Assembly: GCF_011299555.1 (NCBI RefSeq)
Contig: NZ_CP049857.1
Span: 1,612,001-1,676,000, forward strand
Source: Dysgonomonas sp. HDW5A
GTDB taxonomy: Bacteria > Bacteroidota > Bacteroidia > Bacteroidales > Dysgonomonadaceae
DNA length: 64,000 bases
Direction: 5' to 3'
Position 1 is the first letter of the stretch, and each line of letters starts with the position of its first letter. This document shows positions 807 to 63,008 of the stretch, piece by piece. Under the pieces are notes generated by a model, which saw only the letters and a list, made by a program, of their open reading frames with translations, was not told where the DNA came from and did no database searches. Position numbers and translations under genes: made by a program.

Positions 807-829
807 TTTATAAAAAGGTCTGTGACCTT
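807..829 (-). repeat. Intergenic repeat copy Q (palindromic end)
   Basis: AAGGTC-TGT-GACCTT hairpin (815-829), 20 bp before gldN. On the minus strand it continues with TTTTTATAAA. Confidence 0.6.
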
Positions 830-849
830 CGATTAGAACAATATTATAT

Positions 850-1920
850 ATGAAAAGATTATTTCTAACAATTACAATAGGGCTATGTGGTTTGCTAATC
901 ACTCAAAATCTCTTTGCTCAACAAGATCAAGGAGAAGCTTTGCGTGAACGTCTTACCAGACGACAAAACCAACAGAACAATTCAGGTGGAGTACCTCCCT
1001 TGACTGTTAGAGCTCAAATAATGAACGAATCGCAATCGCAAACTCAGGAAATAGGTAATGCTCCCTGGATACGCGAAATATATCGTTTTATTGATTTGGA
1101 AAAAGAAAAAAATGCTACTCTATATTATCCGGTGACACCTATAGGAGATCGCACCAATCTTTTTACGTTGATATTCAGGCTTCTTCAAAACGGAGATATT
1201 ACCGTTTACAAATACCAATTAAATGATATGGAAGTCTTCAACGAAGATAATAAAGAAACCTTCAAAGATGTATTGGAGCGTTTCGATATTATGAATCGTC
1301 AGGAGAACGGAAAATATATCGTAGAAGACATAGATGTTCCAAGCAACGAGGTATTGGGCTATTATGTAAAAGAAGCATGGTACTTCGATAAAAATAATTC
1401 GGTTGTAGATATCAAAACACTGGCTCTATGCCCTGTAATTATCAGACAAGATGATTTTGGTGTGGACAGAAGCCGTTATCCGATGTTTTGGGTTCCTTAC
1501 GAAAACATACGCCCTTATACATCGCGTATGCCTATAATGATATCGAGTTTGAATAACGCTACGACAATGACTATCAACGATTATTTCGTAAAACATTTGT
1601 TTCAAGGAGATATCGAAAAAGCAACCAATGTACGCAACCTAAGTTTAGCCCAGCAATATCCGGATGAAGCTAAGCGAAAAGCAGCTCAAAAGAAAATTGA
1701 AGAACAGCTAAAGGCATTCAATGCTAATCTTTGGGTGTATAATGACTCTATTGCTGCCAATACCGGAGCAGCTCAGGCAAACAACAAAGGCAAGGGTCCG
1801 AGCATAAAGAATGCACCGACAAGCAATAGTACAAATACAACAACCAGAGCAGCAGTACAAAAAGAAGCTAAATCTCAATCGGCACCATCGCGCAGTATGA
1901 GAAACCGAAAGAGAAATTAA
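850..1920 (+). CDS. gldN: GldN/PorN, type IX secretion ring protein
   Basis: The product is 356 residues with a Sec signal peptide ending near residue 24 (LFAQQDQ). The core (about 60-290) carries the GldN pattern, including an IREIYRFIDLEKEKNATLYYP segment and a YYVKEAWYFDKN segment. GldN forms the periplasmic ring with lipoprotein GldK at the outer membrane and is needed for T9SS export. The last 50 or so residues are low in complexity (Asn, Ser, Thr, then Arg/Lys) and look like a disordered basic tail. The gene follows gldM, so it is probably the end of a gldKLMN operon. Its TAA stop shares two bases with intergenic repeat copy A. Confidence 0.9.
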   Translation: MKRLFLTITIGLCGLLITQNLFAQQDQGEALRERLTRRQNQQNNSGGVPPLTVRAQIMNESQSQTQEIGNAPWIREIYRFIDLEKEKNATLYYPVTPIGDRTNLFTLIFRLLQNGDITVYKYQLNDMEVFNEDNKETFKDVLERFDIMNRQENGKYIVEDIDVPSNEVLGYYVKEAWYFDKNNSVVDIKTLALCPVIIRQDDFGVDRSRYPMFWVPYENIRPYTSRMPIMISSLNNATTMTINDYFVKHLFQGDIEKATNVRNLSLAQQYPDEAKRKAAQKKIEEQLKAFNANLWVYNDSIAANTGAAQANNKGKGPSIKNAPTSNSTNTTTRAAVQKEAKSQSAPSRSMRNRKRN

Positions 1921-2014
1921 GGTCTCAGGCTTTTTATTGCTTTGGCAAGCATCACAACTAGGGATAGTTATACTGATAGAATATTGCATTAAATATTTAA
2001 CGCTAGTTAGGATA
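1919..2014 (+). repeat. Intergenic repeat copy A (near full length)
   Basis: Starts inside the gldN stop codon (TAA then GGTCTCAGGC), then TTTATTGCTTTGGCAAGCAT, AACTAGGGATAGTT and the tail ATTGCATTAAATATT. Confidence 0.75.
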
Positions 2015-2036
2015 ACAGACATCAATCTGCAGATTA

Positions 2037-3197
2037 ATGACGAAAAAATATATTTTCGATAATAACTCCCAAAAGGTATTACTATGCCTTTTGGGAGTTA
2101 TTAATATGTTGTTTGTCGTAAAATACTGCCCTGCCTATTCATTTTTAGCAGCAGCAATTTATGGTATTGTTCTATCTTCATCCTATTGCTATTACAAATA
2201 CTTCTTACAAGACAAACTGCAAAAGCGACACGTATACATTCTCCTTTTTGCATTAATCGTTTGCGTTACTATTTCTTTATTACTGCTGGTTGATCCATAC
2301 AGCGTTACTGTAGATCGTTGGTCTGCCTTATACAACTGGTCTGATACACTTTTTCAGGGTAAATATCCCTATGATACACTGACTCATACACATATTCCCG
2401 AAAACTACCCGTCACCATTTCCCATATGGCAAATAGTACATATCCCTTTCTACTTTCTTGGCGAAATGGGTATCGGACATTTAGTTACTCTCACATTGGT
2501 ATGCTATGTCTTATATAAATATCAGAAATCGTTTAACCTGACTCTGTTTCTATTCTTAATACTACTATCACCCTGCTACTGGTGGGAGATAACTGTTAGA
2601 AGCGATTTAATGAACAATATGTTCATCTGCCTGCTCTTTATCACCATATTCCATTTTAGCTTTAGAGAGACAAGATATATGCTTCCGTTGGGTATCATTA
2701 TAGGATTGCTGTTATGCACCCGTTTATTTACAGGAATACCTCTGGCTGTCTATTTTATACCCTATTTTATTAGAAAAAGTACAACAAATAAACTCAAGCT
2801 TATTGTGGGTTGCCTCTTAGGTTTTGTTTGCCCGTTTATACCTTTCATGATTTGGGATTTCGACAGGCTGTTTTTTTTCGAGTATAGCCCTCTTATGCTC
2901 CAAACCAAACAGGGAAGCATCTATACATTAATTGTAGGACTGATATTTATCGGGATTTTCTCTTTTTGTTGGAAAAACTACAAAGAATACCTTCTCTATA
3001 TTTCGGTTATACTCTTTAGTTTTATACTTTTGAATTTTATAAAATTCATCTATCACGATGGTTTTATGGCAACTCTTACAAACGATCTTTTCGACATATC
3101 TTATTTCAACATTACTATTCCATTTGTTGTTTTAGGTTTATGTCTCTCTAAAACAGACAACAATGAAAATGAGAAAATTAGTCTTTTCGACAAATAA
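2037..3197 (+). CDS. Multi-pass membrane glycosyltransferase-like protein (GT-C type)
   Basis: The 386-residue product has about ten hydrophobic segments and no signal peptide. After the second or third helix comes a polar periplasmic-type stretch (DRWSALYNW, then [10 protein letters not shown], then a proline-rich [11 protein letters not shown]), the layout of polyprenol-phosphate-sugar-dependent mannosyl/arabinosyl-transferase-like proteins. I cannot assign donor or acceptor. The last 35 bases overlap the start of rdgB, suggesting translational coupling. No other glycan genes are adjacent. Two further unlinked proteins of this general type lie at 10275-11744 and 48892-50580. Confidence 0.6.
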
Positions 3198-3744
3198 CGA
3201 ACATAAACTCGAAGAAGTCAGAGCCAAACTAGGCAAATACTATCAGGTCATAAGCCTAAAAGATTTAGGTGATGATACTGATGTTCCCGAAACAGGTGAT
3301 ACTCTAGAGGAAAATGCCATGATAAAAGCCGACTATTTGTGGAACACCTATCAGCTAAATTGCTTTGCGGATGATACCGGTCTCGAAGTAGAAGCTTTAG
3401 ATAATGCTCCGGGAGTATATTCGGCAAGGTATGCAGGCGAACACAAAAGTTCGGAAGATAATGTAGCCAAACTTCTTAAAGAACTCGAAGGTAAAGAGAA
3501 TCGCAGAGCCCGTTTCAGAACGGTTATCGCTCTTATTATGGGAGGAAAACGTTATCTGTTCGAAGGTAAAATCGAAGGAGTCATAACAACTTCTCCAAAA
3601 GGTACATCCGGCTTTGGATACGATCCGGTTTTTCAAGCTGACGGTTACGATAAAACATTTGCAGAATTAACTCTCGAAGATAAAAACAACATAAGCCATC
3701 GGGCAAAGGCAGTAGAACAGTTGGTACTATTCTTAAGAAAATAA
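3163..3744 (+). CDS. rdgB: XTP/dITP diphosphatase (RdgB/HAM1)
   Basis: The protein (193 residues) begins [19 protein letters not shown], the HAM1 N-terminal substrate loop, and has [12 protein letters not shown], the SARYAGEH segment and the C-terminal GYDPVF and SHRAKA motifs. It hydrolyses non-canonical purine triphosphates (dITP, XTP) to monophosphates and protects DNA from their incorporation. ATGs at 3163 and 3169 are both possible starts; the second gives the more usual N-terminus. The 5' end overlaps the upstream membrane-protein gene in another frame. The stop codon merges with repeat copy B. Confidence 0.95.
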
Positions 3745-3772
3745 GGTCTCAAACCTTTTTATTATTTATTTA
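3743..3772 (+). repeat. Intergenic repeat copy B (truncated)
   Basis: AAGGTCTCAAACCTTTTTATT starts within the rdgB stop codon; the downstream part diverges. Confidence 0.55.
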
Positions 3773-3814: not shown

Positions 3815-4501
3815 ATGTGGAAATGGAAGAAGGAATTCTTTTATTTTTCGAAAGGTGATCGAATTGCCATTATTCTGCTATTAAACTTAATAGTAGTGAG
3901 TGGGGGCATCTTTATTTTCATGAATAAATTTACGTTTACGGACGCTGTTTACCGTGATCAGAACGAAGAGGTTCAGAAAGATTTTGTACAATTCGAAAAC
4001 AACCTTGAAGTTATAGAGCCTCTTAAAGAGGAATCAGCCGATAATAATGAATCGCCCGCAACTCCCCACAGATCGAAAAAAGAAAATAAGCAAAAACTGC
4101 AATTGGGTCAAACTATAGATATTAATCTGGCATCTGCCTCAACTCTAACCCGTATTCCCGGCATTGGAGATGTGTTTGCAGAGCGTATAATCGAATATCG
4201 GAATTCGCTGGGAGGATTTGCTTCGCTTGAACAATTATACGAGATAAAGGGTATTACAGTTAATAAATTCAGCAAAGTATTGCCTTATTTAGTATTACAG
4301 AAAAAACACAAGCTAATAAGAATAAATAAAGTCTCCGCAGATCAACTTATAAGTCACCCTTACTTCGAAGAAAAGCAAATTGAGGCTCTTGCTGAACTAA
4401 GAAAAGGCGTAAAAATCAATGATATTTCAGATTTATCAAATAATGAGAGCTTCACCTCAAGAGATATCGATAGGTTGGCTCCTTATTTAAGTTTCGACTA
4501 A
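3815..4501 (+). CDS. ComEA-like helix-hairpin-helix protein
   Basis: The 228-residue product has a short cytoplasmic N-terminus, one transmembrane helix (about 18-37), an acidic linker, and a helix-hairpin-helix unit at about 100-160 (INLASASTLTRIPGIGDVFA, then IIEYRNSLGGF and LYEIKGIT). A second, weaker HhH-like repeat follows. This is the ComEA architecture: a membrane-anchored periplasmic DNA-binding protein, which in competent bacteria binds incoming double-stranded DNA. No other competence genes are nearby, so a role in uptake is inference. The gene ends in TAA immediately before repeat copy C. Confidence 0.75.
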   Translation: MWKWKKEFFYFSKGDRIAIILLLNLIVVSGGIFIFMNKFTFTDAVYRDQNEEVQKDFVQFENNLEVIEPLKEESADNNESPATPHRSKKENKQKLQLGQTIDINLASASTLTRIPGIGDVFAERIIEYRNSLGGFASLEQLYEIKGITVNKFSKVLPYLVLQKKHKLIRINKVSADQLISHPYFEEKQIEALAELRKGVKINDISDLSNNESFTSRDIDRLAPYLSFD

Positions 4502-4505
4502 GGTC

Positions 4506-4542
4506 AAGGTCACAGACCTTTTTATTACTTTGGCAAGTATAT
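4506..4542 (+). repeat. Intergenic repeat copy C
   Basis: AAGGTCACAGACCTTTTTAT then TACTTTGGCAAGTATA follows the ComEA-like gene; the rest is lost before the mobile element. Confidence 0.7.
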
Positions 4543-4630
4543 GAGTAAACAAGTATACAAGCCTTGTTTACTTGTCAGCCTGTTTACTCGTTTACTTAAA
4601 AAAAGATATACCAATAAATTTTATTCTTTA

Positions 4631-4667
4631 TGCGAATCTGTAGTTGATCTGTTATGTTTAAATGTTC
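4631..4667 (+). repeat. Left terminal inverted repeat of mobile element copy 1
   Basis: This 37-bp arm is the longer form and matches the right arm of copy 2 almost base for base (57523-57562, reverse complement), including the GTTATGTTTAAATGTTC segment. Confidence 0.85.
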
Positions 4668-5117
4668 TATTTGATTGTCTTTTTATTCTACGCGCAATCG
4701 AAGATTGCTTGTATTCCTTTTGCCCAAAGCCGCAAAAGGAATCAAAAAGGCTTTGTGCTGCGTGGCTCGCCTGTCTGACTTAAGCTTGCGGGCTAAACTA
4801 AACTTATTGCCTATCGGCACGTTTAGTTTTACGCCTGCTTCGCTTGTCAGCCAACGGCTGTGCCTCTGATGCACTGGGGCTGACGCCTGCAAATGGCTTT
4901 TGTCCGTAAGGCTCCTCGACCTTGGCGTTTGCACGGGGTACCCGTAGGATGAAGAAAGCGTTAAGAAACAAAAGGATATCAACAATAAACGTTTTTCTTT
5001 TGTTTTAGCTTTCGAGTCCGTAGCGGGTCGGGCAAAGAGGCTCAGTCTTGATCTTTTGTTTCGTTTTGCATCAAGGCAAAATGAAAAACAAATCCATAAG
5101 GGTGCGTTAGAATAATT

Positions 5118-5146
5118 GAACATTAAACAGATCAACTACTGATTGA
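5118..5146 (-). repeat. Right terminal inverted repeat of mobile element copy 1
   Basis: Read on the minus strand it begins TCAATCAGTAGTTGATCTG and ends TTAATGTTC. It lacks about six bases that are present in the left arm. Confidence 0.85.
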
Positions 5147-5165
5147 TATTCTTTACTCAAATACA

Positions 5166-7052: not shown

Positions 7053-7329
7053 TAAATATTTTTAGAAAATTTGCTGTGGAAGCAATTATTCTGTCCTCTG
7101 CCACCATTTTTACACTACGACTAAGAAAAGAGAGAAATAATTGATCCCCATGTTTTAATTCATATTCCTATCAGGAAAGCCTTCAACTCTCACAAGTTTA
7201 AAATTTTCCCTCAATTACGTTCTTAACGGAATATAGACCCTTAGCCCTGTTATCTCTGTGACAGATAATTTTGTTTTACGATTCTCTTTTGTAGTAAATT
7301 GAAAGAATCTTTATTCGTCTAAAACGCTG
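7053..7329 (-). promoter_or_regulatory. Long 5' leader of the DEAD-box helicase gene
   Basis: About 270 bases lie between the -7 element and the start codon with no convincing reading frame. A hairpin (TTATCT-GTCACAG-AGATAA on the minus strand) lies near 7250-7270. Structured leaders often control helicase synthesis by cold or autoregulation. I recognise no known riboswitch. Confidence 0.4.
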
Positions 7330-7337: not shown

Positions 7338-7454
7338 GTAATTTATTTTTGATAACTGCATAACTTTGATATATAATCGTATACATACTCCTAAAAATAA
7401 ACAACAGGAGCAAAAAAACATACATCCCACAATAATAGCTCATTATCATTACTA

Positions 7455-7487
7455 CATTTAACAAAGTAACAAAAAGGTCTGTGACCT
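7455..7487 (-). repeat. Intergenic repeat copy R
   Basis: Minus strand: AGGTCACAGACCTTTTTGTT then ACTTTGTTAAATG, upstream of the ada promoter. Confidence 0.6.
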
Positions 7488-15842: not shown

Positions 15843-15940
15843 GCGTAGTAAATAACAGAAAGTATTAAATATCGCTTTTCGGCACCATAACTGTCAGTCG
15901 ATTTTACACTTGGATGGATAAAAAACAGGTCACAGACCTT
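15843..15940 (-). repeat. Intergenic repeat copy S (near full length)
   Basis: Minus strand: AAGGTCTGTGACCTGTTTTT, then ATCCATCCAAGTGTAAAATC, ending with ATATTTAATACTTTCTGTTA. Lies about 20 bp before the phosphatase-like gene. Confidence 0.8.
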
Positions 15941-15960
15941 AGAGTTAGTAAACAGAAGCA

Positions 15961-18248: not shown

Positions 18249-18344
18249 TTTTAACAACTACACTACTATTTTATATATCAATCGAGAATGAGCAAAGCTA
18301 CCAATCTTATTTTGGGAAGCTTTGCTTTCTTTATTAAGAGATCC

Positions 18345-18428
18345 CCAGTATTTAATGCTATTTTTGTTAAGTTATAACTATCTATTTTTGTTTCACTTAC
18401 TAAGGTCACCAATAGTTCTGCGAACTTA
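18345..18428 (-). repeat. Intergenic repeat copy N
   Basis: Minus strand starts TAAGTTCGCAGAACTATTGG; it contains AATAGATAGTTATAACTT and ATAGCATTAAATACT. Confidence 0.65.
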
Positions 18429-20409: not shown

Positions 20410-20466
20410 ACAGATATTCCCAATTGTTTCCAGAAAGTGTTCTTTCCTTTGTTTCATAATACGATT

Positions 20467-20560
20467 AAGGTGTCTGACTTTATTATTGCTTTTATAAGCA
20501 AAACTATAGTAAAGGACAACCGGAGAATACAATATAAATATTCATTTTCAATCAATTAGA
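20467..20560 (+). repeat. Intergenic repeat copy Z
   Basis: AAGGTGTCTGACTTTATTAT then TGCTTTTATAAGCAAAACTA, tail GAATACAATATAAATATTC. Confidence 0.55.
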
Positions 20561-21544: not shown

Positions 21545-21580
21545 AATAGCCAAAGATTAAGAAAGTCTTTGGTTATTTTA
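21545..21580. terminator. Terminator after the PepSY pair
   Basis: AATAGCCAAAGA and TCTTTGGTTATT form a 12-bp stem with one mismatch, flanked by A/T on both sides. It could serve either strand. Confidence 0.75.
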
Positions 21581-21609
21581 AGTTCGTAGAACTATTTATT
21601 GCTTTGGCT
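21580..21609 (+). repeat. Intergenic repeat copy E
   Basis: AAGTTCGTAGAACTATTTAT then TGCTTTGGC, a GTTC/GAAC stem variant leading into the long hairpin. Confidence 0.65.
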
Positions 21610-21673
21610 ATAGGGGTGAGCCTGTGTGTTCACCTATTTCGGTTAGACACATAGGTCTGCCCCTAGCAATAAA
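21596..21673. repeat. Long imperfect hairpin between convergent genes
   Basis: TTATTGC, then GCTATAGGGGTGAGCCTGTG, pairs with CACATAGGTCTGCCCCTAGC and then GCAATAA, leaving about a 17-base loop. The stem is roughly 28 bp with few mismatches. It starts at the tail of repeat copy E. It may be a structured RNA or decayed mobile element. Confidence 0.6.
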
Positions 21674-21710
21674 AATATATCATTACATATTTCTTTTAAT
21701 TATTTATACT

Positions 21711-25916: not shown

Positions 25917-26041
25917 TTTAATGACGAAAAGTATTCAATAGGGCATCTTGTGGCTATTTTTGTGTAAATACAACAGGCTATTTACTTCACATGCCAAGGC
26001 AATAAAAAGACTTGAGACATTAAAATTACAAACCAACTTAT

Positions 26042-28316: not shown

Positions 28317-28494
28317 CAGGTTACAAGTATATTTATCCATTTTTCAGTACTTGTACAAAACAAATTAGGGTATCCTAAAGGGTATTATCCAAATCAATAC
28401 TTGGATTTTCATATCCCAAATATCATTTTTCGTTAACATATGCGGTATTGTTATCGAATAATTCTTATTTTTGTAATGTTGACACACTATATTA

Positions 28495-28590
28495 AAGTCT
28501 CAGAGCTATTTATTGTCCATACAAGTATAACACCCATTGGTAGTTATAGCTTTAAAATACGACATTAAATACTTTTTGTAACTTAATAAG
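28495..28590 (+). repeat. Intergenic repeat copy F (near full length)
   Basis: AAGTCTCAGAGCTATTTATT then GTCCATACAAGTATAACACC, then GTAGTTATAGCTTTAAAATA and the ATTAAATACTTTTTG tail. Confidence 0.8.
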
Positions 28591-28627
28591 CAATAACATT
28601 TGATGCTATGCCATAGAGGCATAACAA

Positions 28628-28671
28628 AGTATACTTATTTCCCAAATAAGCATTAATAGGTCTGAGACCTT
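28628..28671 (-). repeat. Intergenic repeat copy O, facing copy F
   Basis: Minus strand: AAGGTCTCAGACCTATTAAT then GCTTATTTGGGAAATAAGTA. The hairpin lies 15 bp before the TetR start. Confidence 0.65.
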
Positions 28672-28686
28672 AATAATAATTGATAA

Positions 28687-29337: not shown

Positions 29338-29362
29338 TTATAATAAATAGGTCTGAGACCTT
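29338..29362 (-). repeat. Intergenic repeat copy P
   Basis: Minus strand: AAGGTCTCAGACCTATTTAT; the AA belongs to the VWA gene stop codon. Confidence 0.65.
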
Positions 29363-30527
29363 AATTCTCGACAGTGTACCCTTTTACTTTGGCAAATGCC
29401 AGAAGAGATTCGCTTATCGCTTTCCCTAAATCTTCACCATCCGGATCGTTTTGAGATTGGTTATCAATATATTCCTGACGCTTCTTGGCTAAATCGGCTA
29501 TTTCCTTTTGAATATCATTCCTTTCTTTTTCTTTTTGAGTAACCAGCTGTTTAATTTCATCTTTCGATTTGCCCTGTAGTCCAGCAGGAAGTTCTTCTTC
29601 TTTTATTTTATCCAAAGCTGCACCATCATCTTTCACCATATCCACCAAATCCCATGAGCTGTTTTTGTACACCGATTTTGATTTACTTACGATACGTTCG
29701 GCAGAATTAGCCTTAGAGATCGATGCTGCATTTCTATCTTGAGTGACCTGATTCGCCTGTTTTTCATATCCTAATTGTCCATAACTGATATAAGTATCAT
29801 TCAACCGTTGATTACAACTACTTATACGATCATCGTAAGGAGTTTCTATGTAACGTACTCTGGCATTCGAATCTATATTGAAGAATTTACCTTTTCCTCT
29901 GACTGAGGCATCTTTCCACAAATCACGTATGCCCGTTTCGGGGTCTCCGCAATGAATCGTATTTACGTATATATCTTTTCTGAGAGCCTGAGGTATAGAT
30001 GTTTTATAGGATATTCTGCCTTGTTCAAATATTTCGTTTCCTGCAATATAGATTAGTTTCATATCCGACTCGTTACTCCCCCACTCCAACTCTTTTGTTG
30101 CTCGGCTTATGGCAGTTCCGCAATACTCTTCGCTACCGCTCGTTCTAAGTGCAAAGAGTTTTTCTGAGATTAAATCCAGATCGGTTGTCAAAGGAGTTAT
30201 CTGATACATATAATCTCCTTCATACCTATTACCAGTTCCATAGGCATAGAGGGCAATTTCTATCTGTGGAGACTCTCCTCTATACTTTAGTGTCGTAAGT
30301 GTATTAACAATATTCCATAAGCGCGATTTGGCTTGCTCGATCAACCCATCCATACTACCCGACACATCTAAAAGAATGGCTACCTGAATTTTTGTAGCAT
30401 TGGCAGATTTAACGGGTGCAGCAATTTCCTTCTCTTCCACTATATTTCGTGGAGCTGCCTGTGTACAACTTAAAGCCATAAAAGCAAAGGAAAATAACAT
30501 TGAACATGACAATAATAACTTTTTCAT
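29361..30527 (-). CDS. VWA-domain lipoprotein
   Basis: The 388-residue product has a lipobox (MALSCTQ, Cys21) and a von Willebrand A domain (about 45-225) with an intact MIDAS motif (LLDVSGSMD: Asp54, Ser56, Ser58). The C-terminal 150 residues are charged, with a likely coiled coil (about 320-370) that includes KEKERNDIQKEIADLAKK. Such proteins are presumed extracellular or periplasmic metal-ion-dependent adhesion or scaffolding proteins. The stop codon is fused to repeat copy P. Confidence 0.85.
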   Translation of the reverse strand: MKKLLLSCSMLFSFAFMALSCTQAAPRNIVEEKEIAAPVKSANATKIQVAILLDVSGSMDGLIEQAKSRLWNIVNTLTTLKYRGESPQIEIALYAYGTGNRYEGDYMYQITPLTTDLDLISEKLFALRTSGSEEYCGTAISRATKELEWGSNESDMKLIYIAGNEIFEQGRISYKTSIPQALRKDIYVNTIHCGDPETGIRDLWKDASVRGKGKFFNIDSNARVRYIETPYDDRISSCNQRLNDTYISYGQLGYEKQANQVTQDRNAASISKANSAERIVSKSKSVYKNSSWDLVDMVKDDGAALDKIKEEELPAGLQGKSKDEIKQLVTQKEKERNDIQKEIADLAKKRQEYIDNQSQNDPDGEDLGKAISESLLAFAKVKGYTVEN

Positions 30528-30680: not shown

Positions 30681-32474
30681 ATGTATACAAGATATTTAAT
30701 ATACCTGGTCATTACTTTTTTACTGTCACAAGGCTCAATTGAAGCTCAGGATAGCAAAGGGCGTAAGTCGCAAAGCAAAGCCATATTCGACTTAAGTAAG
30801 TCGTTGGAAGATGGTGAACCGGACGAAAAGGTTGCATTAGAATACGAAAAGACGGCGAAAGAACAAATTGCTCAGGGAGAATATGCCAAAGCCGAAGATT
30901 ACCTTAATCGGGCTAAGAAGCTATATGAGAAACTGAAAAATAAGGAAAAGATAGCCTATATAGATAGAGAAATAGCTAAAGTACAAGAGCAGCAAAACAA
31001 ATTGTCAGAGGCCATATCGAGTTATAATCTGGCAGGTAAAGTATCGGAAGATAAGATTCAACAGGCAATAAATACAAACGATGCCCAACGATTGATAAAC
31101 AATTCGAACCCGAAAGCAAAATCATCTTATATACAGAGGAATATAAATCTTTTGGAGAAATCTGCCAATACGGAGGATCGTTCCAATGCTTATCAGCAAA
31201 TGGCAGAGGTGAATCTTGAAATGGATAATAAGGTAGAAGCCATCAATAATCTGGAATACGCTCTGAAGGATGCCAAAAAGCCTGTAGAGATTATAAAGAT
31301 AAACAAAGACATTGCCAACATATATGCTGCCGAGAATAACCACGACAAGGTTATCGATATCAATAAAAAATTGGTAAAAGAGGCTGAAAAAACACAAGAT
31401 ACCAAGATTCAGGTAGAACAATTACAATCGTTATCGAATGCTTATTTTGAGGGACACGATACAGCTCAGGGAATTTCGTCATTACAGGATGCTTATAATT
31501 TAGCCATGGAGGAAGGTCATACTATGGAGGCTAAAAAAAGTGTTGAACTACTTATCGATCAATACAAAAAAGAAAAGAATACGCAAAAAGCCTTAGAATT
31601 ATATGGTGATTTTATGAATCGGTTAGAAACCACAATTAAATCAGACAGCTCATTCATGGATGCCCGTCTACTGCAATTAAACGAAGATAAAATAAAACAA
31701 CTGGAGAGAGAACGGTCTTTGAATGAACAGCTTATAAAGAAAAAGAATATTCTGAACTATGCCCTTATCGCTCTGATTGTATTGATTCTTATATTTCTTA
31801 TTTTCACCATCAAAGCATTGTATTCTATTAAAATAAAGAATAAAAAGATTGCTTTACAATCGTTACGCCGCGAGATGAATCCTCATTTTATCTTCAATAG
31901 TTTGAATAGTATCAATCATTTTATTGCACAAAATAACGAATTGGAAGCTAATAAGTACCTTTCCTCGTATTCTAAACTAATGCGTAATATCATGGAGAAT
32001 TCGAATAAGGATTTCATTACCTTAGCTACCGAAATAGAGCAATTGCAGGAATATCTTGATCTGGAGCATATGCGTTTCCAAGATAAATTTTCATACCAGA
32101 TACAGATAGATAATTCTTTGGATACAGATAGTATTCTGGTTCCTAATATGCTTATACAACCTCAACTTGAGAATGCTATTTGGCATGGATTAAGGTATAA
32201 AGAAAGTAACGGACTACTTATACTCTCCGTAAAACAGCACGAAGGCTATTTACAAGTCATTGTAGACGATAACGGGATAGGACTGAGTAAGAGCAAGGAA
32301 CTTAAAACAAAGCACCAGAAAATCCATCAATCAAGGGGACTGAACAATACACTCGAACGGATCGGGTTATTAAATAACTTGTATAAAAGTAAAATAACGA
32401 TTGACATCAGCGAAAAAACAAAGAATGAAACAGGGGTTATTGTTATCATAACTTTTCCTCTAACCTTAAAGTAA
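30681..32474 (+). CDS. TPR-containing LytS-type sensor histidine kinase
   Basis: The 597-residue product has a signal peptide, a periplasmic TPR region (about 50-330), one transmembrane helix (about 357-379), a short coil and a His_kinase domain with RREMNPHFIFNSLNSI (His402). The C-terminal ATPase part includes QPQLENAIWHGLRY and VDDNGIGLS. It belongs to the LytS/YehU branch, common in Bacteroidetes. The response-regulator gene follows after 26 bp, with the small repeat G between them. Confidence 0.92.
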   Translation: MYTRYLIYLVITFLLSQGSIEAQDSKGRKSQSKAIFDLSKSLEDGEPDEKVALEYEKTAKEQIAQGEYAKAEDYLNRAKKLYEKLKNKEKIAYIDREIAKVQEQQNKLSEAISSYNLAGKVSEDKIQQAINTNDAQRLINNSNPKAKSSYIQRNINLLEKSANTEDRSNAYQQMAEVNLEMDNKVEAINNLEYALKDAKKPVEIIKINKDIANIYAAENNHDKVIDINKKLVKEAEKTQDTKIQVEQLQSLSNAYFEGHDTAQGISSLQDAYNLAMEEGHTMEAKKSVELLIDQYKKEKNTQKALELYGDFMNRLETTIKSDSSFMDARLLQLNEDKIKQLERERSLNEQLIKKKNILNYALIALIVLILIFLIFTIKALYSIKIKNKKIALQSLRREMNPHFIFNSLNSINHFIAQNNELEANKYLSSYSKLMRNIMENSNKDFITLATEIEQLQEYLDLEHMRFQDKFSYQIQIDNSLDTDSILVPNMLIQPQLENAIWHGLRYKESNGLLILSVKQHEGYLQVIVDDNGIGLSKSKELKTKHQKIHQSRGLNNTLERIGLLNNLYKSKITIDISEKTKNETGVIVIITFPLTLK

Positions 32475-32496
32475 GTTTTCAGAACTATTTATTTAA
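32473..32496 (+). repeat. Intergenic repeat copy G (short)
   Basis: AAGTTTTCAGAACTATTTAT starts in the kinase stop codon and separates kinase and regulator genes. Confidence 0.55.
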
Positions 32497-33250: not shown

Positions 33251-33264
33251 GTGTGCATTCTTTT

Positions 33265-33292
33265 AAGTTCTCAGAACTATTTGCAGCTATAA
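33265..33292 (+). repeat. Intergenic repeat copy H (short)
   Basis: AAGTTCTCAGAACTATTTGC, a perfect GTTCT/AGAAC stem, just before a terminator. Confidence 0.55.
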
Positions 33293-33296
33293 AAAT

Positions 33297-33332
33297 AAAA
33301 GGCTGTAGATTACTTAATCTACAGCCTTTTTA
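33297..33332. terminator. Bidirectional terminator between convergent genes
   Basis: AAAGGCTGTAGATTA and TAATCTACAGCCTTT form a perfect 15-bp stem with a CT loop, with A/T runs on both sides. Confidence 0.9.
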
Positions 33333-33361
33333 ATACAAACCTTTTGTTTTCCTATAACTAA

Positions 33362-37733: not shown

Positions 37734-37777
37734 TTTAAATTAAGTAAAAGAGAATATTTAATGATAGTTTTGTAAAC

Positions 37778-38614
37778 TTAAATTTTCTCACTGTCAATAA
37801 CAGCAAAAGGTATGCTTAGTTTAAAGAAACCTTGATCTTCTGCTATCTTATTCATTTTGTTTTCAATGATTTCGAAAATTTCAGCTTGTTTATCTTCGGA
37901 TACAATATTTTTCCAGCTATCTAAAAAAGCAAGTCTTATAAAATAGTACTGCAAGACGGTCGATCCATCGGCAAAAGTATAATTAAATTGATCTTTTATG
38001 ACCTTTTTTACCGAAAATCCGTTTTGTTCGACCAAGCTTACAAGTTCTTCGAGAGGTTTACGCATCCTATAAATGTGATTCCACATAGCATCGATTTCCG
38101 TTTGCATGCCGTATTCTTTCAACACTTCTTCCATTATATCATAAAACTCAATCATGGTTTCACTAAGATTCATGGTTTGAATGAATTGTCCCACACTCTT
38201 CATTATACGTGAACATTCACTCAGTGTTTTATTCAGATCCGAAACGTTATTTAATCCGTTATTGCTCGTTATTAAATCAACCGATCTATCTCCAAGGGGT
38301 ATATTTTCGGCTACACCTCTGATAATTTCTACATTGTCGATTCCATAAAAAGCTATTTTCTTTTCAGCTCTTTTAATAGCTGCTTCCCACGGATCTATCC
38401 CATATACTTTACTCGATTTACCGAATCTCATAGCCAATTCGGTAAGTGGAAAACCTGCTCCGAATCCGATATCAAGAACAGTGCTGTTTTTTCTCATCCT
38501 TACATTTTCGAGTAGTTTCAAACCAAAAGGAGCAGCCCAAAAGGGTAATTCATCGAATAACTCAATTAATTCATCGGAATTAAAATCAAAAGCGGTGACT
38601 AAGTGATCGTTCAT
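37778..38614 (-). CDS. Class I SAM-dependent methyltransferase
   Basis: The 278-residue product has motif I VLDIGFGAGFP (about 45-55), an acidic strand end YGIDPWEAA, and VDLITSNNGLNNV around motif IV. It resembles UbiE/Methyltransf_11 enzymes. The substrate is unknown. It lies 45 bp from the flippase gene, so a role in modifying a glycan or lipid carrier is possible but unproven. Confidence 0.8.
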   Translation of the reverse strand: MNDHLVTAFDFNSDELIELFDELPFWAAPFGLKLLENVRMRKNSTVLDIGFGAGFPLTELAMRFGKSSKVYGIDPWEAAIKRAEKKIAFYGIDNVEIIRGVAENIPLGDRSVDLITSNNGLNNVSDLNKTLSECSRIMKSVGQFIQTMNLSETMIEFYDIMEEVLKEYGMQTEIDAMWNHIYRMRKPLEELVSLVEQNGFSVKKVIKDQFNYTFADGSTVLQYYFIRLAFLDSWKNIVSEDKQAEIFEIIENKMNKIAEDQGFFKLSIPFAVIDSEKI

Positions 38615-38692: not shown

Positions 38693-38790
38693 ACGGTCTC
38701 AGACGTATTTATTGTCCATCCAAGTATAAAAACAATTGGTAATTATAGCTTTAAAATGCAATATTAAATACTTTCTGCTACTTGAAATAT
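38693..38790 (+). repeat. Intergenic repeat copy I (near full length)
   Basis: ACGGTCTCAGACGTATTTAT, then TGTCCATCCAAGTATAAAAA, then TAGCTTTAAAATGCAATATT and AAATACTTTCTGCTACTTG. Confidence 0.8.
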
Positions 38791-38835: not shown

Positions 38836-38930
38836 CCTTGATATTAAGTACTATGTACTATCTATTTATTGCATTTTAGATTCAGTTTTAAATGCTGTAC
38901 TTAGATATTTTACTAAAAAAACTCCACTTT

Positions 38931-39830
38931 ATGCTTCTTTTAGAACCTCAGCACTGGACAGATTATGAGTTAATAGATTCGGGTAATTATGAAAAACTCG
39001 AACGATTCGGAAAACACATCCTGGTACGACCCGAACCTCAGGCAGTATGGCAAAAATCGCTGCCGGAAAAAGAATGGGAAGACATGGCTGATGCTATTTT
39101 CAGACGCGAAAAGGGAAAATCGTCACAGGATGGTAGCGAAAGGGGAGAATGGATTCAGAAAAAAGGAATGCCCGATCAGTGGTTTATTAACTATGATTAT
39201 AAGGATATGCACCTTAAATTTCGTTTAGGCCTTACTTCTTTTAAACATGTAGGTATATTTCCCGAACAAGCCGAAAACTGGAATTTTATTTATGATACCA
39301 TCAAAAGCTTCGATGTAAGTGAACCCAAAGTATTGAACCTCTTTGCTTATACAGGAGGTGCTTCTATTGCTGCGAAAAGTGCAGGAGCTGATGTTACCCA
39401 TGTAGATTCTGTTAAACAGGTTATTACATGGTCACGCGAAAATATGGAGGCTTCGAATCTCGATAATATCAGATGGATTGTCGAAGATGCTCTCAAATTT
39501 TGCAGACGTGAAATAAAACGAGGCAAAAAATACAACGGTATTATTCTCGATCCTCCTGCTTATGGTCGTGGTCCTGATGGCGAACGATGGATTCTGGAAG
39601 AAAACATAGCAGAACTGATGTCGATCTGCCATGAATTACTAGAGAACGAAAATTCATTTCTTATACTTAATCTCTATTCGATGGGATTTTCGCCGGTCAT
39701 AGCTGAAAACTTAATTAAAAATTACTTTCCTGCTATCAAATCATATCAATATGGAGAACTTTTAATACCCGAAAAATCGGGGAAAAGATTACCTCTAAGC
39801 ATTTTTATTAGATTCAATAAAATAAAATAA
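38931..39830 (+). CDS. Class I SAM-dependent RNA methyltransferase (RlmI/RlmK-like)
   Basis: The start is taken at 38931 (MLLLEPQHWTDYELIDSGNY, 299 residues); the upstream extension from 38892 is not typical. It contains VLNLFAYTGGASIAAKSAGA (motif I), DSVKQVITWSREN and ILDPPAYGRGPDG (catalytic motif), as in 23S rRNA cytosine methyltransferases. It lacks the N-terminal PUA domain usual in RlmI, having instead an N-terminal beta region. Which base it modifies is not visible. Confidence 0.8.
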   Translation: MLLLEPQHWTDYELIDSGNYEKLERFGKHILVRPEPQAVWQKSLPEKEWEDMADAIFRREKGKSSQDGSERGEWIQKKGMPDQWFINYDYKDMHLKFRLGLTSFKHVGIFPEQAENWNFIYDTIKSFDVSEPKVLNLFAYTGGASIAAKSAGADVTHVDSVKQVITWSRENMEASNLDNIRWIVEDALKFCRREIKRGKKYNGIILDPPAYGRGPDGERWILEENIAELMSICHELLENENSFLILNLYSMGFSPVIAENLIKNYFPAIKSYQYGELLIPEKSGKRLPLSIFIRFNKIK

Positions 39831-39833
39831 AAT

Positions 39834-39930
39834 AAGTTAGCAGAATTATTTATTATTCAGGTAAGCAAAACAGCTATAAATTGTTATAGTCTTAAAACGC
39901 TCATTAAATACGTTCTTTTACTTAAAATAA
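39834..39930 (+). repeat. Intergenic repeat copy J
   Basis: AAGTTAGCAGAATTATTTAT with a worn stem, then GTTATAGTCTTAAAACGCTC and ATTAAATACGTTCTTTTACT. Confidence 0.65.
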
Positions 39931-40460: not shown

Positions 40461-40934
40461 AAGAGAAAAAGAATGCTTGTCAATAAAGTGTTGATAACTG
40501 TTGATAATTTTCTGAAAAATAAAGTTGCAAAGTTGATAGCTCTAATAGTATATAAGATATTCATGAAATACAAAATTATTAAGCATAAATCTTTGTTTTT
40601 AATATCATACAGTTATCAACAACTATTAACAATGTGAATAAATAAAACTTTTAAACACTCATAGTTATCAACACCCGTTTAATAAAGTCTATAACAGTCA
40701 GAAAACCATACTATATGAGTATGCTAAAAAATGTTGATAAATGTATATAAGTCTGCATAAATTTAATAGTAACTTAAAAAGCAAGAAAAATACGAAATAC
40801 TAATAAACAGTTTCAACAGGCTATTATTACTACCATATTAGTTTTTAGTTTAAAGAAGAATAAATAATACATAATACAATTGTTGATAACCCATTTTTGG
40901 ATAACTGTAGATTTTTAAGTAAATTCATCTATTT
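40461..40934. other. Candidate replication origin (oriC)
   Basis: A very AT-rich, gene-free region holds six exact TGTTGATAA 9-mers: + at 40489-40497, 40499-40507, 40732-40740 and 40881-40889; - at 40613-40621 and 40665-40673. Each is one mismatch from the DnaA box TGTGGATAA. A near match TTTGGATAA lies at 40896-40904. The first two are spaced 10 bp apart, in helical phase. AT-rich runs between boxes could be the unwinding element. GC-skew change and parS sites at 61 kb support the call. Confidence 0.6.
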
Positions 40935-41040
40935 AAGTTTTCAGAACTATTTATTACTTGGATATGCAAAATAGTCGTAGATAGTTATACCTTTATAAAA
41001 GGTGTCGTACATAAATTTTCTTTTACTTATTATTACTTGT
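40935..41040 (+). repeat. Intergenic repeat copy K
   Basis: AAGTTTTCAGAACTATTTAT, then TACTTGGATATGC, then GATAGTTATACCTTTATAAA and the TTTTCTTTTACTTA tail. It borders the oriC candidate. Confidence 0.7.
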
Positions 41041-41072
41041 ATTTATTCAATGAATAAAAGGTCTCGGACCTT
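41041..41072 (-). repeat. Intergenic repeat copy T, facing copy K
   Basis: Minus strand: AAGGTCCGAGACCTTTTATT; hairpin 12-25 bp before the phosphatase start. Confidence 0.6.
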
Positions 41073-41083
41073 ACTATATAATT

Positions 41084-54454: not shown

Positions 54455-54551
54455 CTTAATAAGTAAATAAAAGTATTCAATAATATGTTTTAAGAATCCG
54501 GCAGTTTGTAATTGTTGTGATGTTCAGAGCGATAATAAGTCTAAGGCTTTA
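54455..54551 (-). repeat. Intergenic repeat copy Y
   Basis: Minus strand: AAAGCCTTAGACTTATTATC then GCTCTGAACATCACAACAAT, tail ATTGAATACTTTTATTTACT. Confidence 0.6.
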
Positions 54552-56944: not shown

Positions 56945-57041
56945 TTACCTAGTATCGTTATTTATTGATAGATAAACTTGCTGAGATATAACTAGGGTTG
57001 TACTTCTTATTAAGTACAAGTAATAAATAGTTCTGCGAACT
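56945..57041 (-). repeat. Intergenic repeat copy M
   Basis: Minus strand: AAGTTCGCAGAACTATTTAT then TACTTGTACTTAATAAG and AACCCTAGTTATA. Mobile element copy 2 is inserted just beside its palindromic end. Confidence 0.6.
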
Positions 57042-57053
57042 TTTATTACTTAT

Positions 57054-57085: not shown

Positions 57086-57522
57086 AAATTGTCTTTTACT
57101 ACGCGCAATCACAGATTGCTTGTATTCCTTTTGCCCAAATCCGCAAAAGGAATCAAAAAGTCTTTGTGCTGCGTGGCTCGCCTGTCTGACTAAAGCATGC
57201 AGGCTAAACTAAACCTACTGCCTTTCGGCACGTTTAGTTTTACGCCCGCTTCGCTTATCAGCCAACGGCTGCACCACTGATGCACTGATGCTGACGCACG
57301 CAATGGCTTGTCATCCGTTAGGTTACCGACCTTGCCACTTGCACGGGGTACCCGCAGGATGAAGAAAGCGTTAAGAAACAAAAGGATATCTTTCGTTAAA
57401 CGTTTTTCTTTTGTTTTAGTTTTCGAGTCCGTAGCGGGTCGGGCAAAAGGCACAGTCTTGATCTTTTGTTTCGTTTTGCATCAAGGCAAAATGAAAAACA
57501 AACCCATAGGGTGCGTTAGAAT

Positions 57523-57562
57523 AATTGAACATTTAAACATAACAGATTAACTACTGATTCGC
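57523..57562 (-). repeat. Right terminal inverted repeat of mobile element copy 2
   Basis: The full-length arm (40 bp), nearly identical to the left arm of copy 1. Confidence 0.85.
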
Positions 57563-57620
57563 ATTACTTATAATCGATTTTATTTTATACAAAAGTAGGA
57601 ATAAATTTGGGTATGTAGGC

Positions 57621-60389: not shown

Positions 60390-60929
60390 TTAAATATCGT
60401 ATTTTATAATTGCTTCCACTTCTACATCATCAGGGAATAGTTTTCGACCCTGAAGTTGTTCTAATTCGATAATGAAGTTTACATATATTTTTTTTACACC
60501 CATTCTTTTGATTAATTTATATGCAGCAAGCATTGTTCCTCCTGTTGCAAGTAAATCATCATGAATTAGTACTACATCATCTGGTTCTAGCGAATCTTTG
60601 TGTATTTGTATTGTATCTACACCATATTCTTTTTCGTAGCTTTCTTCGTATGTATCTGCAGGAAGCTTTCCGGGTTTTCTGATTGGAATAAATCCGGCAT
60701 TCATATTTAAAGCTAAAATAGGGCCCATTATAAATCCTCTTGATTCAATTCCTACAACTTTGGTTATGCCCTTGTTTTTATACAAGTCTGTTAAAACTTC
60801 TGTCAGGTCTTTCAAGTTTTGAGGAGATTGAAATAATGTGGTTACATCTTTAAACTGGATTCCCGGTATTGGAAAGTCTGGAATATTTCTTACGGATGAT
60901 CTTAGACTTTCAATTTTTTTGTGTGGCAT
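60390..60929 (-). CDS. apt: Adenine phosphoribosyltransferase
   Basis: The start is taken at the ATG at 60929 (MPHKKIESLRSSVRNIP, 179 residues), the usual Apt length. A longer frame from 60986 would run through parS site 1. The product has FPIPGIQFKDVT, VVGIESRGFIMGP and the PRPP-binding LIHDDLLATGGTMLAA. It converts adenine and PRPP to AMP. It lies between uvrC and the parS-mnmG region. Confidence 0.93.
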   Translation of the reverse strand: MPHKKIESLRSSVRNIPDFPIPGIQFKDVTTLFQSPQNLKDLTEVLTDLYKNKGITKVVGIESRGFIMGPILALNMNAGFIPIRKPGKLPADTYEESYEKEYGVDTIQIHKDSLEPDDVVLIHDDLLATGGTMLAAYKLIKRMGVKKIYVNFIIELEQLQGRKLFPDDVEVEAIIKYDI

Positions 60930-60978
60930 GATTTTATAAATAACTGTTTTAATGTGCTGTGACGCGTATTTTTGAAAT

Positions 60979-60994
60979 TGTTCCACGTGAAACC
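60979..60994. promoter_or_regulatory. parS-like site 1 (ParB-binding)
   Basis: TGTTCCACGTGAAACC is a near-perfect palindrome, matching the widely conserved parS consensus except for the last base. It lies upstream of apt. Confidence 0.85.
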
Positions 60995-61000
60995 GAAATT

Positions 61001-61016
61001 TGTTCCACGTGAAACC
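61001..61016. promoter_or_regulatory. parS-like site 2 (ParB-binding)
   Basis: Identical to site 1 (TGTTCCACGTGAAACC), 22 bp away, so the two sites are about two helical turns apart. It lies 10 bp from the mnmG stop. Confidence 0.85.
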
Positions 61017-61025
61017 GGTTTCTTT

Positions 61026-62900
61026 TTATCTTCCCAAAAGTACAAGGAGAATCGAAATGTCATTCGGTGAAACTCCGGGGATTCGACTTGCTTGTCCGAT
61101 TGTTTCCGGATTTATTTTGGCGAGCTTTTGGCGAGCCTCCGTCGAAAGAGATAAAATGCTTTCGTAATCGATTTTGTCTTTTATCAGAATGTTTTCTAAT
61201 CTGGTTATCTTTTCAGCGATCAATTGTTCGCGTTTGATGTAACCGTCATATTTGATTCTTATTTCTGTTGCTTCGATGATTTCCTCTTTTCTATTCGGGA
61301 TTTTATCAATCTCTGCTTTAAATGCAGGAATCGAATCCAGAATGTTTTCGATACTTATTTGTGGACGGGTCAACAAGTCTTTTAATTTGACTCTTTGTTT
61401 TAAAGGACTTGTTCCTAATTTCTCCAATGATGAATTTATATATTCCGGTTTCAAAGGATAGTTTGCCGTGAATTCAATCAGTTTGTTTATTTCTTCTTTC
61501 TTTTCATTCAGAAGATTTATGCGGTCTTCTTTTACAATACCCAGATCATATCCCAATTGAGTGAGGCGTACGTCAGCATCGTCTTGTCTTAATAAGATTC
61601 TATATTCGGCACGAGAAGTAAACATTCTGTACGGTTCATCCACGCCTTTTGTTACCAGATCATCGATCAATACACCTATATATGCTTGGTCTCGTCTTAA
61701 GATAAATTCTTTATCACTGTGGCAATTCAAGTGAGCATTTATACCTGCAATCAGTCCTTGTCCCGCAGCTTCTTCATATCCTGTAGTTCCGTTTATTTGA
61801 CCGGCAAAGAATAAGTTTTTCATTAATTTCGTTTCCAACGTATGTTTTAATTGCGTAGGATCGAAGAAATCGTACTCAATAGCATATCCCGGTCTGTAGA
61901 TATGAATGTTTCTGAAAGCCGGTATTTTTTCAAGAGCCTCAATTTGGTTGTGGAGTGGGAGAGACGAGGAAAAACCATTTAAGTAATATTCCTGAGTGTT
62001 TTCACCTTCGGGTTCTAAGAACAATTGGTGTGAATTTTTCTCCGAAAAAGTTACTATTTTAGTTTCGATGCTTGGACAGTATCTTGGTCCTATACTCTTG
62101 ATTTGTCCGTTGTAAAGGGGTGAATATTCAAGACCTTCTCTTAGTTTGTCATGAACTTCTTCATTTGTATTGCATATCCAGCAACTAAGTTGTTTAAGGG
62201 TTCTAGGTTTGAAATCTAAGTAAGAAAATTTGTGGAAATCTTCTTCACCTTTTTGTTCTTCCATCAGTGAAAAGTCAACGCTTCTACCGTCAATTCTGGC
62301 AGGAGTTCCCGTTTTCATTCTGTCTGTAGTAAATCCCGCCTCTCTTAATTGTTCGGTGATTCCGTATGAAGCAGGTTCTGCAACCCTTCCTCCTGTAAGT
62401 TGAGTCGATCCGATATGCATCAATCCGTTCAAAAAAGTACCGTTTGTAAGCACTACCGATTGTGCGGAAAATGTTACACCGAGACTTGTTTTTACACCTT
62501 TTACTGTTTTATTTTCGATAACCAGGGATGTAACCGCATCTTGCCAGATGAATAAGTTATTGGTGTTTTCGACAATTTCTCTCCATTTTAAAATGAATTG
62601 AGCCCTGTCGCTTTGTGCCCGAGGACTCCACATCGCAGGTCCTTTCGACTTGTTTAGCATTCTGAATTGGATGGCAGTTTTATCTGTAACAATCGCCATT
62701 TGTCCGCCTAAAGCGTCGATCTCTCTTACTATTTGTCCTTTTGCGATTCCACCCACTGCAGGATTACAGCTCATCTGGGCGATCTTATTCATATCCATCG
62801 TTATTAACAGGGTTTTTGAGCCTAAGTTAGCTGCTGCTGTAGCGGCTTCACAGCCGGCATGTCCTGCGCCTACGACTATTACGTCATATTTAAAATCCAT
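61026..62900 (-). CDS. mnmG: tRNA uridine-5-carboxymethylaminomethyl modification enzyme MnmG/GidA
   Basis: The 624-residue product has an N-terminal FAD-binding VVGAGHAGCEAA (about 9-20), SCNPAVGGIAKGQIVREIDA, the GxxTG-like GTTGYEEAAGQG segment and a C-terminal helical domain. With MnmE it modifies U34 of several tRNAs. The gene is often near the origin, as here. The leader carries repeat copy L between the -7 element (63016-63023) and the start. Confidence 0.97.
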   Translation of the reverse strand: MDFKYDVIVVGAGHAGCEAATAAANLGSKTLLITMDMNKIAQMSCNPAVGGIAKGQIVREIDALGGQMAIVTDKTAIQFRMLNKSKGPAMWSPRAQSDRAQFILKWREIVENTNNLFIWQDAVTSLVIENKTVKGVKTSLGVTFSAQSVVLTNGTFLNGLMHIGSTQLTGGRVAEPASYGITEQLREAGFTTDRMKTGTPARIDGRSVDFSLMEEQKGEEDFHKFSYLDFKPRTLKQLSCWICNTNEEVHDKLREGLEYSPLYNGQIKSIGPRYCPSIETKIVTFSEKNSHQLFLEPEGENTQEYYLNGFSSSLPLHNQIEALEKIPAFRNIHIYRPGYAIEYDFFDPTQLKHTLETKLMKNLFFAGQINGTTGYEEAAGQGLIAGINAHLNCHSDKEFILRRDQAYIGVLIDDLVTKGVDEPYRMFTSRAEYRILLRQDDADVRLTQLGYDLGIVKEDRINLLNEKKEEINKLIEFTANYPLKPEYINSSLEKLGTSPLKQRVKLKDLLTRPQISIENILDSIPAFKAEIDKIPNRKEEIIEATEIRIKYDGYIKREQLIAEKITRLENILIKDKIDYESILSLSTEARQKLAKINPETIGQASRIPGVSPNDISILLVLLGR

Positions 62901-62914
62901 TGTTATTTACTTTA

Positions 62915-63008
62915 AAGTCTCCGACTTATTTGTTTTATTCGAGCAAGTATAAGTGCAACTATCTGTTGTAATTAGAGATATTGCGTTAAATATTTGCTGC
63001 TATTTAAT
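62915..63008 (+). repeat. Intergenic repeat copy L in the mnmG leader
   Basis: AAGTCTCCGACTTATTTGTT then CGAGCAAGTATAAGTGCAAC and TTGCGTTAAATATTTGCTGC, between the mnmG promoter and start. Confidence 0.7.

Follow-up and report, generated by a model that had tools for sequence, protein, structure and literature searches.

A MITE-like intergenic repeat family with a terminal hairpin in Dysgonomonas sp. HDW5A

The window analyzed here, a stretch of 64,000 nucleotides of Dysgonomonas sp. HDW5A (G000:C1:1612001-1676000, part of a 4.30-Mb contig), contains a dense family of short intergenic repeats that carry a hairpin at one end. The family is real, which confirms the observation made in the initial annotation of the window, and its unit is very probably a non-autonomous mobile element of about 93 bp that resembles a miniature inverted-repeat transposable element (MITE) and inserts at TA dinucleotides between genes. 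The sharp, TA-flanked ends of the element, together with empty sites at orthologous positions in related genomes, show that the family has spread as mobile DNA, a proposal absent from the initial annotation. Of that earlier interpretation, the dense family, the terminal hairpin and one compensating stem pair are retained, but the broad covariation is not.

Copy number and boundaries of the element

Copies were located with a sequence-only model (R1), trained on 20 copies from elsewhere in the same genome. R1 gives 19 matches in the window at E ≤ 0.0048 with filters off. Four hairpin-only remnants lie beyond these 19 (marked in Table 1), three of them with R1 E-values of 0.038 to 0.25; the previously reported figure of about two dozen copies, in both orientations, is thus borne out. 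The 20-mer TATTTATTGCTTTGGCAAGT, with up to three mismatches, occurs four times in the window (0.05 expected) and 124 times in the genome, against one occurrence of the reversed pattern, in agreement with the earlier statement that the copy number is beyond chance. At least 151 R1 matches are present in the genome (the best 150 of 5580 candidates scored). Systematic sampling of 400 kb, as 20 stretches of 20 kb each, yielded 38 matches at E ≤ 0.05, two of them from opposite ends of a single composite copy. This corresponds to about one copy per 10 kb, which extrapolates to about 400 copies per genome. With 17 matches at the same threshold in 64 kb, the window is about 2.8 times as dense as the sample. 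The stretches of this genome that were analyzed amount to 26% of it and were partly picked for containing copies, the 400-kb set alone being systematic. Counts that involve genes rest on a simple open reading frame (ORF) caller of our own making; by this caller, only 2 of 164 copies lie inside ORFs, and the family is therefore intergenic.

The alignment of copies spans 93 bp (TAAGKTCNCAGAMCTWTTTATTGCTTTGGYAAG...ATTAAATAYTT...TTTACTTA). The shared layout that had been described, with hairpin, TATTTATTGCTTTGGCAAG, ATTAAATAYTT and a TTTACTTA tail, is recovered, but as a delimited 93-bp, TA-flanked element rather than an open-ended motif. The ends are sharp (TA-AG...CT-TA), with the foot of the hairpin conserved as TAAG, and in 48 full-length copies the flanks outside TAAG...CTTA are A+T-rich background. 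Frequencies of the flanking TA in these copies are 0.92 (T) and 0.96 (A) on the left and 0.92 (T) and 0.94 (A) on the right. A length of exactly 93 bp is found in 75 of 120 full-length copies, and TA is retained at both ends in 86. Pairwise identity among the 120 averages 66%, and 35 of them have a relative at 90% identity or more, indicating subfamilies with younger and older copies. The terminal inverted repeat is clear over 4–5 bp (TAAG(T)/(A)CTTA). A longer similarity of the two arms is clear in the GTTC subfamily, where none of 500 shuffles reaches the score even if the last 5 bp are omitted, and is weaker in the other subfamilies (4–5 of 500 shuffles; 21–49 of 500 without the last 5 bp). 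The left end is asymmetric, with a hairpin of 5–6 bp followed by T-rich sequence, and the right end has no hairpin.

Several copies in the window are truncated, composite or reduced to the hairpin. In composite copies, a GGGG...CCCC palindrome sits between the family ends, in several copies together with GTAG, as in the repetitive extragenic palindromes (REPs) of systems with a REP-associated tyrosine transposase (RAYT). The site in the relative G001 that is orthologous to window 28493 holds a similar composite (L102:17656-17768). Stretches of about 68–85 bp between two inverted left-end hairpins were also seen (L065:15457-15533; L070, about 7160-7227; and L107 of G001, orthologous to window 806). 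These stretches, one of which has a different stem (AGGGTC/GACCCT), resemble REPIN-like doublets.

Spread, placement at gene edges and solo hairpins

For 23 copies from the window and stretch L082, orthologous sites were sought in stretches of four relatives (G001, G003, G004 and G005). An orthologous intergenic region was found in a relative for 15 of the 23. At six of these sites, which hold seven copies, a related Dysgonomonas species has no insertion and its flanks can be aligned (Table 1); at the remaining sites the relative either lacks the copy but has flanks that are not closely alignable, or has a copy (window 1918 and 7422). Two sites suggest repeated use: copies in opposite orientations lie about 10–12 nt upstream of the same ATG at L082:5029 and in G005, and copies from different subfamilies lie at the same stop codon at L082:9043 and in G001.

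At E ≤ 1e-5, R1 has matches in 9 of 61 genomes, its own genome counted (per-genome counts are among the matches listed, at most 69). Matches are present in five of six Dysgonomonas genomes, the sixth genome being 62% complete, and, in smaller numbers, in two related genera: in three of four genomes of genus g6 (3–9 each) and in the single genome of genus g15 (19). None was found in the other 26 genomes of the family, nor in 24 genomes from other families of the order. An exact search with a degenerate 25-nt pattern in one genome per species (84,980 species) returned 40 stretches, all from Dysgonomonas. A phage or plasmid origin was also considered and rejected: one 21-nt pattern had no exact match in viral contigs, and blastn of one copy each against plasmids and phages gave nothing.

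Many copies lie at the very edge of a gene. Of the 154 of 164 copies with a usable left end, 24 have a first TAA that serves as stop codon for the upstream gene, and 33 have an antisense left end 11–23 nt before a start codon. These placements were compared with a matched null, in which the element was placed at random TA sites of each ancestral intergenic region (20000 simulations), for the 109 copies with both ends and both neighbors. The left end falls exactly on a stop codon in 14 of the 109 (6.5 expected, P 0.002) and 11–23 nt before a start in 24 (8.7 expected, reached in 0 of 20000 simulations). Right ends on stop codons show no excess (6 found, 6.5 expected); the stop-side effect belongs to the left, hairpin end. 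A simple TA null gives 5- to 6-fold enrichment; with the matched null, on which we rely, the enrichment is 2- to 3-fold in full copies and 3- to 4-fold in left ends that occur alone.

Such solo left ends are frequent. A scan of sequence outside family copies with 22-nt words (threshold 18 of 22) detected 80 left ends against none in the reversed control. Four inner segments yielded 15, 3, 7 and 16 hits (controls 1, 1, 7 and 9), and the right end yielded 26 (control 5). At a threshold of 17, the number of solos rises to 126 (control 10). The sequence behind 79 solos scores like intergenic background, with only 3 above the 95th percentile, and 7 of 45 listed solos have a GTAG-REP-like middle (by eye). 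Of the 80 solos, 74 could be classified by gene edge: 13 are exactly on a stop codon (3.2 expected) and 20 lie before a start (6.0 expected), neither value being reached in 20000 simulations. In 65 weak copies detected by columns 36–93 alone, conservation is higher in the hairpin arms than in those columns (0.81 vs 0.65, P 1e-6). The 18 pairs of adjacent hairpins within 300 nt (6 in +-, 2 in -+ and 10 in same-strand arrangement) show no preference for inverted pairs.

The element inserts at TA dinucleotides in intergenic regions, with the left end (hairpin and T-rich sequence) as the presumed transposition end, and would decay thereafter. Solo occurrences of the left-end hairpin greatly outnumber those of the other parts, a pattern best accounted for by selection for hairpins at the edges of mRNAs. 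A sense copy at a stop codon would supply the TAA and might act as a weak terminator or 3' stabilizer, and an antisense copy just upstream of the ribosome-binding region might form a 5'-leader hairpin; a role as an mRNA 3'- or 5'-end element is a plausible candidate use. That the hairpin is put to use at all we hold with somewhat less than even confidence. The fuller proposal, that the element seeded hundreds of Dysgonomonas genes with a standard hairpin module at their two edges and that solos are kept for mRNA ends, stability or translation as the rest erodes, is tentative and carries still less weight, even after being raised because solos exceed the intergenic TA null at both edges.

Stem variation and competing explanations

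The alternation between GGTC/GACC and GTTC/GAAC stems had been read as covariation pointing to selection on the folded molecule. It amounts to one base pair (model positions 5:13) that is tied to subfamilies. This is the top covarying pair of the element (mutual information with average product correction 0.554; next pair 0.272; standard deviation 0.03), and it is paired in 93% of cases against 52% after shuffling, with 48 cells changed on both sides. Since the pair follows the subfamilies, its changes reflect few events inherited by many copies. The other four stem pairs changed mostly on one side, with 85 one-sided changes (some still G-U) against 4 compensating doubles in 150 family left ends and 79 against 11 in 126 solo left ends. 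Stem covariation is thus upheld for pair 5:13 but not for the rest of the stem, and that pair gives partial support for a constraint on the hairpin, in DNA or RNA. The AACTA..TAGTT inverted repeat, listed as part of the layout, is not supported as a helix: it is formed in 68.4% of cells against 70.2% after shuffling and shows no covariation. Selection on the folded molecule, over-read from the covariation, is instead suggested by the survival and edge placement of the solo hairpins.

A structured RNA with several covarying helices was rejected, as pair 5:13 holds most compensating changes and AACTA..TAGTT behaves like shuffled sequence. Folds of the whole element are unexceptional in seven of eight copies (z -1.45 to +0.33; -3.29 in the other one). 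Rfam scans returned no family at gathering score on the element, the sole match at that level being a tRNA. Around two copies, Rfam scans at E ≤ 1 gave matches (the best, 6e-6, to a microRNA family) that are all far below gathering scores, many of them wholly outside the element; these were attributed to chance.

Searches for three transposase families (Y1_Tnp, DDE_3 and DDE_Tnp_1) turned up no autonomous partner. The single match over the cut-off in this genome, to Y1_Tnp, is a RAYT-like gene (ORF L061:1258-1797; G000:C1, about 418 kb). GTAG-type palindromes lie within its coding sequence (by eye). The gene adjoins two genes that look VWA-like when read by eye, and a diverged copy of the 93-bp family (L061:2433-2525) starts at the stop codon of one of them. 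A scan of 1.75 Mb for long elements produced no convincing candidate; it listed 31 long left-right pairs with 29 distinct right ends. The best long pair (L122) was rejected as an autonomous parent, as it consists of ordinary genes between a copy at a stop codon and another copy. Copies are oriented preferentially with the lagging strand (93 of 150 listed copies, P 0.004; 103 of 164 in an overlapping set), with origin and terminus inferred from the GC skew of the sampled stretches; the bias is stable to the choice of origin and terminus and is a hint of fork-linked insertion.

A number of observations weigh against a TA-inserting mobile element with hairpins retained at gene edges. TA is present at only two of the six empty sites (L082:1479 and L082:14877, by eye), the other four being one base off, and the terminal inverted repeats are short, with longer arms clear in the GTTC subfamily alone. 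PF13358 (DDE_3, IS630-type) and PF01609 (DDE_Tnp_1), the two DDE families sought, have no match in this genome; 24 of the 29 right ends of long pairs are those of ordinary short copies, and the remaining five are weak. Right ends are enriched 11–23 nt before starts as well (16 vs 8.7 expected, P 0.01), so that insertion tolerance explains part of the start-side effect. Convergent gene pairs show no excess of copies (10 of 158), solos show none at +0..3 of stop codons (0 vs 1.6 expected), and the GTTC stem is weak for a terminator. In the 65 weak copies, the arms are barely better kept than columns 17–33 (P 0.06), and the divergence of the tails may reflect diverse source elements rather than decay, which the test on the 3' part cannot separate. 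At orthologous stop edges the hairpin is shared in 3 cases and present in one genome only in 22 (1.6 shared expected), and at orthologous start edges in 3 and 15 (0.9 shared expected); so few shared hairpins argue against strong long-term selection and indicate high turnover.

Much of this would also be expected of a selfish or neutral MITE, for which gene edges are simply harmless TA insertion sites (the stop codon is rebuilt and the leader is tolerant) and solos are decayed or divergent copies. We regard this as a serious contender, falling a little short of an even chance. The enrichment of right ends before starts, the rarity of shared hairpins and the one-sided changes outside pair 5:13 agree with it, as does the share of copies at these special sites, which climbs just from 0.35 in high-scoring to 0.50 in low-scoring copies. 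It accounts poorly for the large excess of solo left over solo right ends, for a stop enrichment specific to the left end and for solos that are concentrated at edges at least as much as full copies. If instead the hairpin were primary, a dispersed intrinsic terminator or mRNA-end hairpin for which the 93-bp element is just one carrier, the abundance of hairpins outside copies would be explained: at a looser threshold, 106 are outside and 130 inside full copies (reversed control 2 in 344 kb; 105 of the 106 classified). No other 6-bp stem that has a 3-nt loop is nearly as common as AAGGTC (51, next 9), the GGTC stem has a T-run behind it, and of 15 terminator-like sites in 19.9 kb scanned (9.0 sites expected in total), 2 are family hairpins. 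On the start side, however, the T-run is directed away from the gene and makes no terminator for it, and the lack of a convergent-gene excess and the Rfam result also speak against a primary hairpin, which we consider unlikely.

The element could alternatively be moved as single-stranded DNA by an HUH/Y1, RAYT-like enzyme, as for REPs, instead of a DDE transposase. A hairpin at the element end, the lagging-strand bias, the Y1_Tnp match as the only one among the families sought and the GTAG-REP-like middles of composite copies all fit such a mover. The element, however, begins with TAAG rather than GTAG or CGTC, the palindromes within the RAYT-like gene fit GTAG repeats as the RAYT substrate, and TA on both sides fits a 2-bp duplication; we judge single-strand transfer improbable. 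The Bacteroidetes -7 box is TAnnTTTG, and reversed CTA subfamilies place TAGGTCTG/TAGTTCTG near many starts, which would allow an outward promoter at the hairpin end to drive genes 11–23 nt away. At least 10 of the 33 start-side copies carry CTT and thereby lose the TA, and TCTG differs from TTTG, making a promoter very improbable.

Related repeats and copies in the window

The element is a TA-flanked, MITE-like intergenic repeat of the RUP, ERIC and Correia kind and constitutes a new family in Dysgonomonas; no earlier description of it was found in the literature searched. Porphyromonas gingivalis, host of the BrickBuilt repeats, belongs to the same order as Dysgonomonas. RUP of Streptococcus pneumoniae, ERIC of enterobacteria and Correia of Neisseria are intergenic, multicopy repeats of about 100–150 bp with terminal inverted repeats and TA termini (PMC2229807). 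The Dysgonomonas element is similar in size, ends and setting (sequences were compared via Rfam scans only), but it is asymmetric, only one of its ends carrying a hairpin, and ends survive on their own. RUP, alone among these repeats in that account, has a proposed mover, IS630-Spn1 (PMC2229807), whereas none was found for the Dysgonomonas element in the families sought. Precedents in S. pneumoniae exist both for donation of stop codons, which BOX copies supply in 36 cases, and for a terminator-like repeat, in that SPRITE has a terminator-like stem with a T-rich tail near gene 3' ends (PMC3049150). The SPRITE duplex is 18 bp and is over-represented between convergent genes (PMC3049150), in contrast to a stem of 5–6 bp, no enrichment at convergent sites and a start-side placement as common as the stop-side one in Dysgonomonas (33 and 31 of 154). 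The element shares with REP/REPIN sequences and their RAYTs the character of short, multicopy extragenic hairpins (PMC3733652, PMC2817692, PMC3116915), but it has TAAG instead of a GTAG/CGTC tag at the hairpin foot, a unit of 93 bp whose right end is defined and has no hairpin, TA flanks and no inverted-pair preference. BrickBuilt, compared by description, is likewise a strictly intergenic MITE, but contains a minisatellite (PMC4596501, PMC10969869), which the Dysgonomonas element does not.

The family is a large addition to the few intergenic mobile repeats known from bacteria and is an example of a hairpin-ended mobile element that can be mistaken for a structured RNA family. Its unusual part is the left-end hairpin, whose persistence at gene edges is of interest. 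Copies that supply stop codons and solo edge hairpins offer hundreds of natural replicates for testing the recruitment of repeats as mRNA-end elements. Copies in the window, empty orthologous sites and composite copies are listed in Table 1.

Table 1. Family copies in the window, empty orthologous sites and composite copies
Location	Strand	Feature	Remarks
809..830	-	hairpin-only copy, beyond the 19 R1 matches	19 nt upstream of ATG 850; identical hairpin in G001 (18 nt before ATG); hairpin 30 nt before ATG in G005
1918..2009	+	full-length copy	62 bits; first TAA is stop codon of ORF 850-1920; in G001 same stop codon, hairpin kept, tail eroded
3742..3763	+	hairpin-only copy, beyond the 19 R1 matches	TAA is stop codon of ORF ending 3744; hairpin there in G005 too
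4506..4630	+	copy with about 32 nt extra sequence	3-4 nt past stop codon of ORF 3815-4501
7418..7487	-	copy lacking the right end	conserved in part in G001 and G005
15849..15941	-	full-length copy	19 nt upstream of start of ORF 15961; G005 has a diverged ortholog in which stem pair 3:15 has changed from A-T to G-C
18337..18428	-	near full-length copy	R1 match
20466..20552	+	diverged copy	R1 match
21579..21702	+	composite copy	family ends flank GTAG-REP-like palindrome
25924..26010	-	diverged copy	R1 match
28493..28585	+	full-length copy	tail to tail with 28586..28672; site empty in G005
28586..28672	-	inverted neighbor copy, middle diverged	hairpin 14 nt upstream of ATG 28687
29342..29363	-	hairpin-only copy	at stop codon of minus-strand ORF 29361-30527
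32472..32493	+	hairpin-only copy, beyond the 19 R1 matches	TAA is stop codon of ORF ending 32474
33264..33336	+	left end, then unrelated sequence including terminator-like hairpin	R1 match
37741..37794	-	right half of copy	R1 match
38695..38783	+	near full-length copy	R1 match
39833..39924	+	full-length copy	2 nt past stop codon of ORF 38892-39830
40934..41029	+	full-length copy	R1 match
41058..41073	-	hairpin-only copy, beyond the 19 R1 matches	10 nt upstream of ATG 41084
54460..54539	-	diverged copy	R1 match
56959..57042	-	diverged copy, intact left end	R1 match
62914..63006	+	diverged full-length copy	12 nt from start codon of minus-strand ORF 61026-62900
L082:5029, L082:1479, L082:12548, window:15849		empty orthologous sites	empty in G001
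L082:14877, window:28493/28586		empty orthologous sites	empty in G005; window site a double insertion
window 21579-21702, L043:10707-10831, L049:9491, L042:8483, L071:8616, L055:7223, L054:13185		composite copies	left end, then GTAG-REP-like palindrome

A separate repeat of about 500 bp is also present in the window (4618-5160 and 57094-57573) and at L082:3734-4266. Its two window copies are 84–98% identical by segment, with a minus-strand ORF of 150 residues at 4683-5135; among the matches listed, 33 copies were found in G001 (D. alginatilytica) and one in G005.

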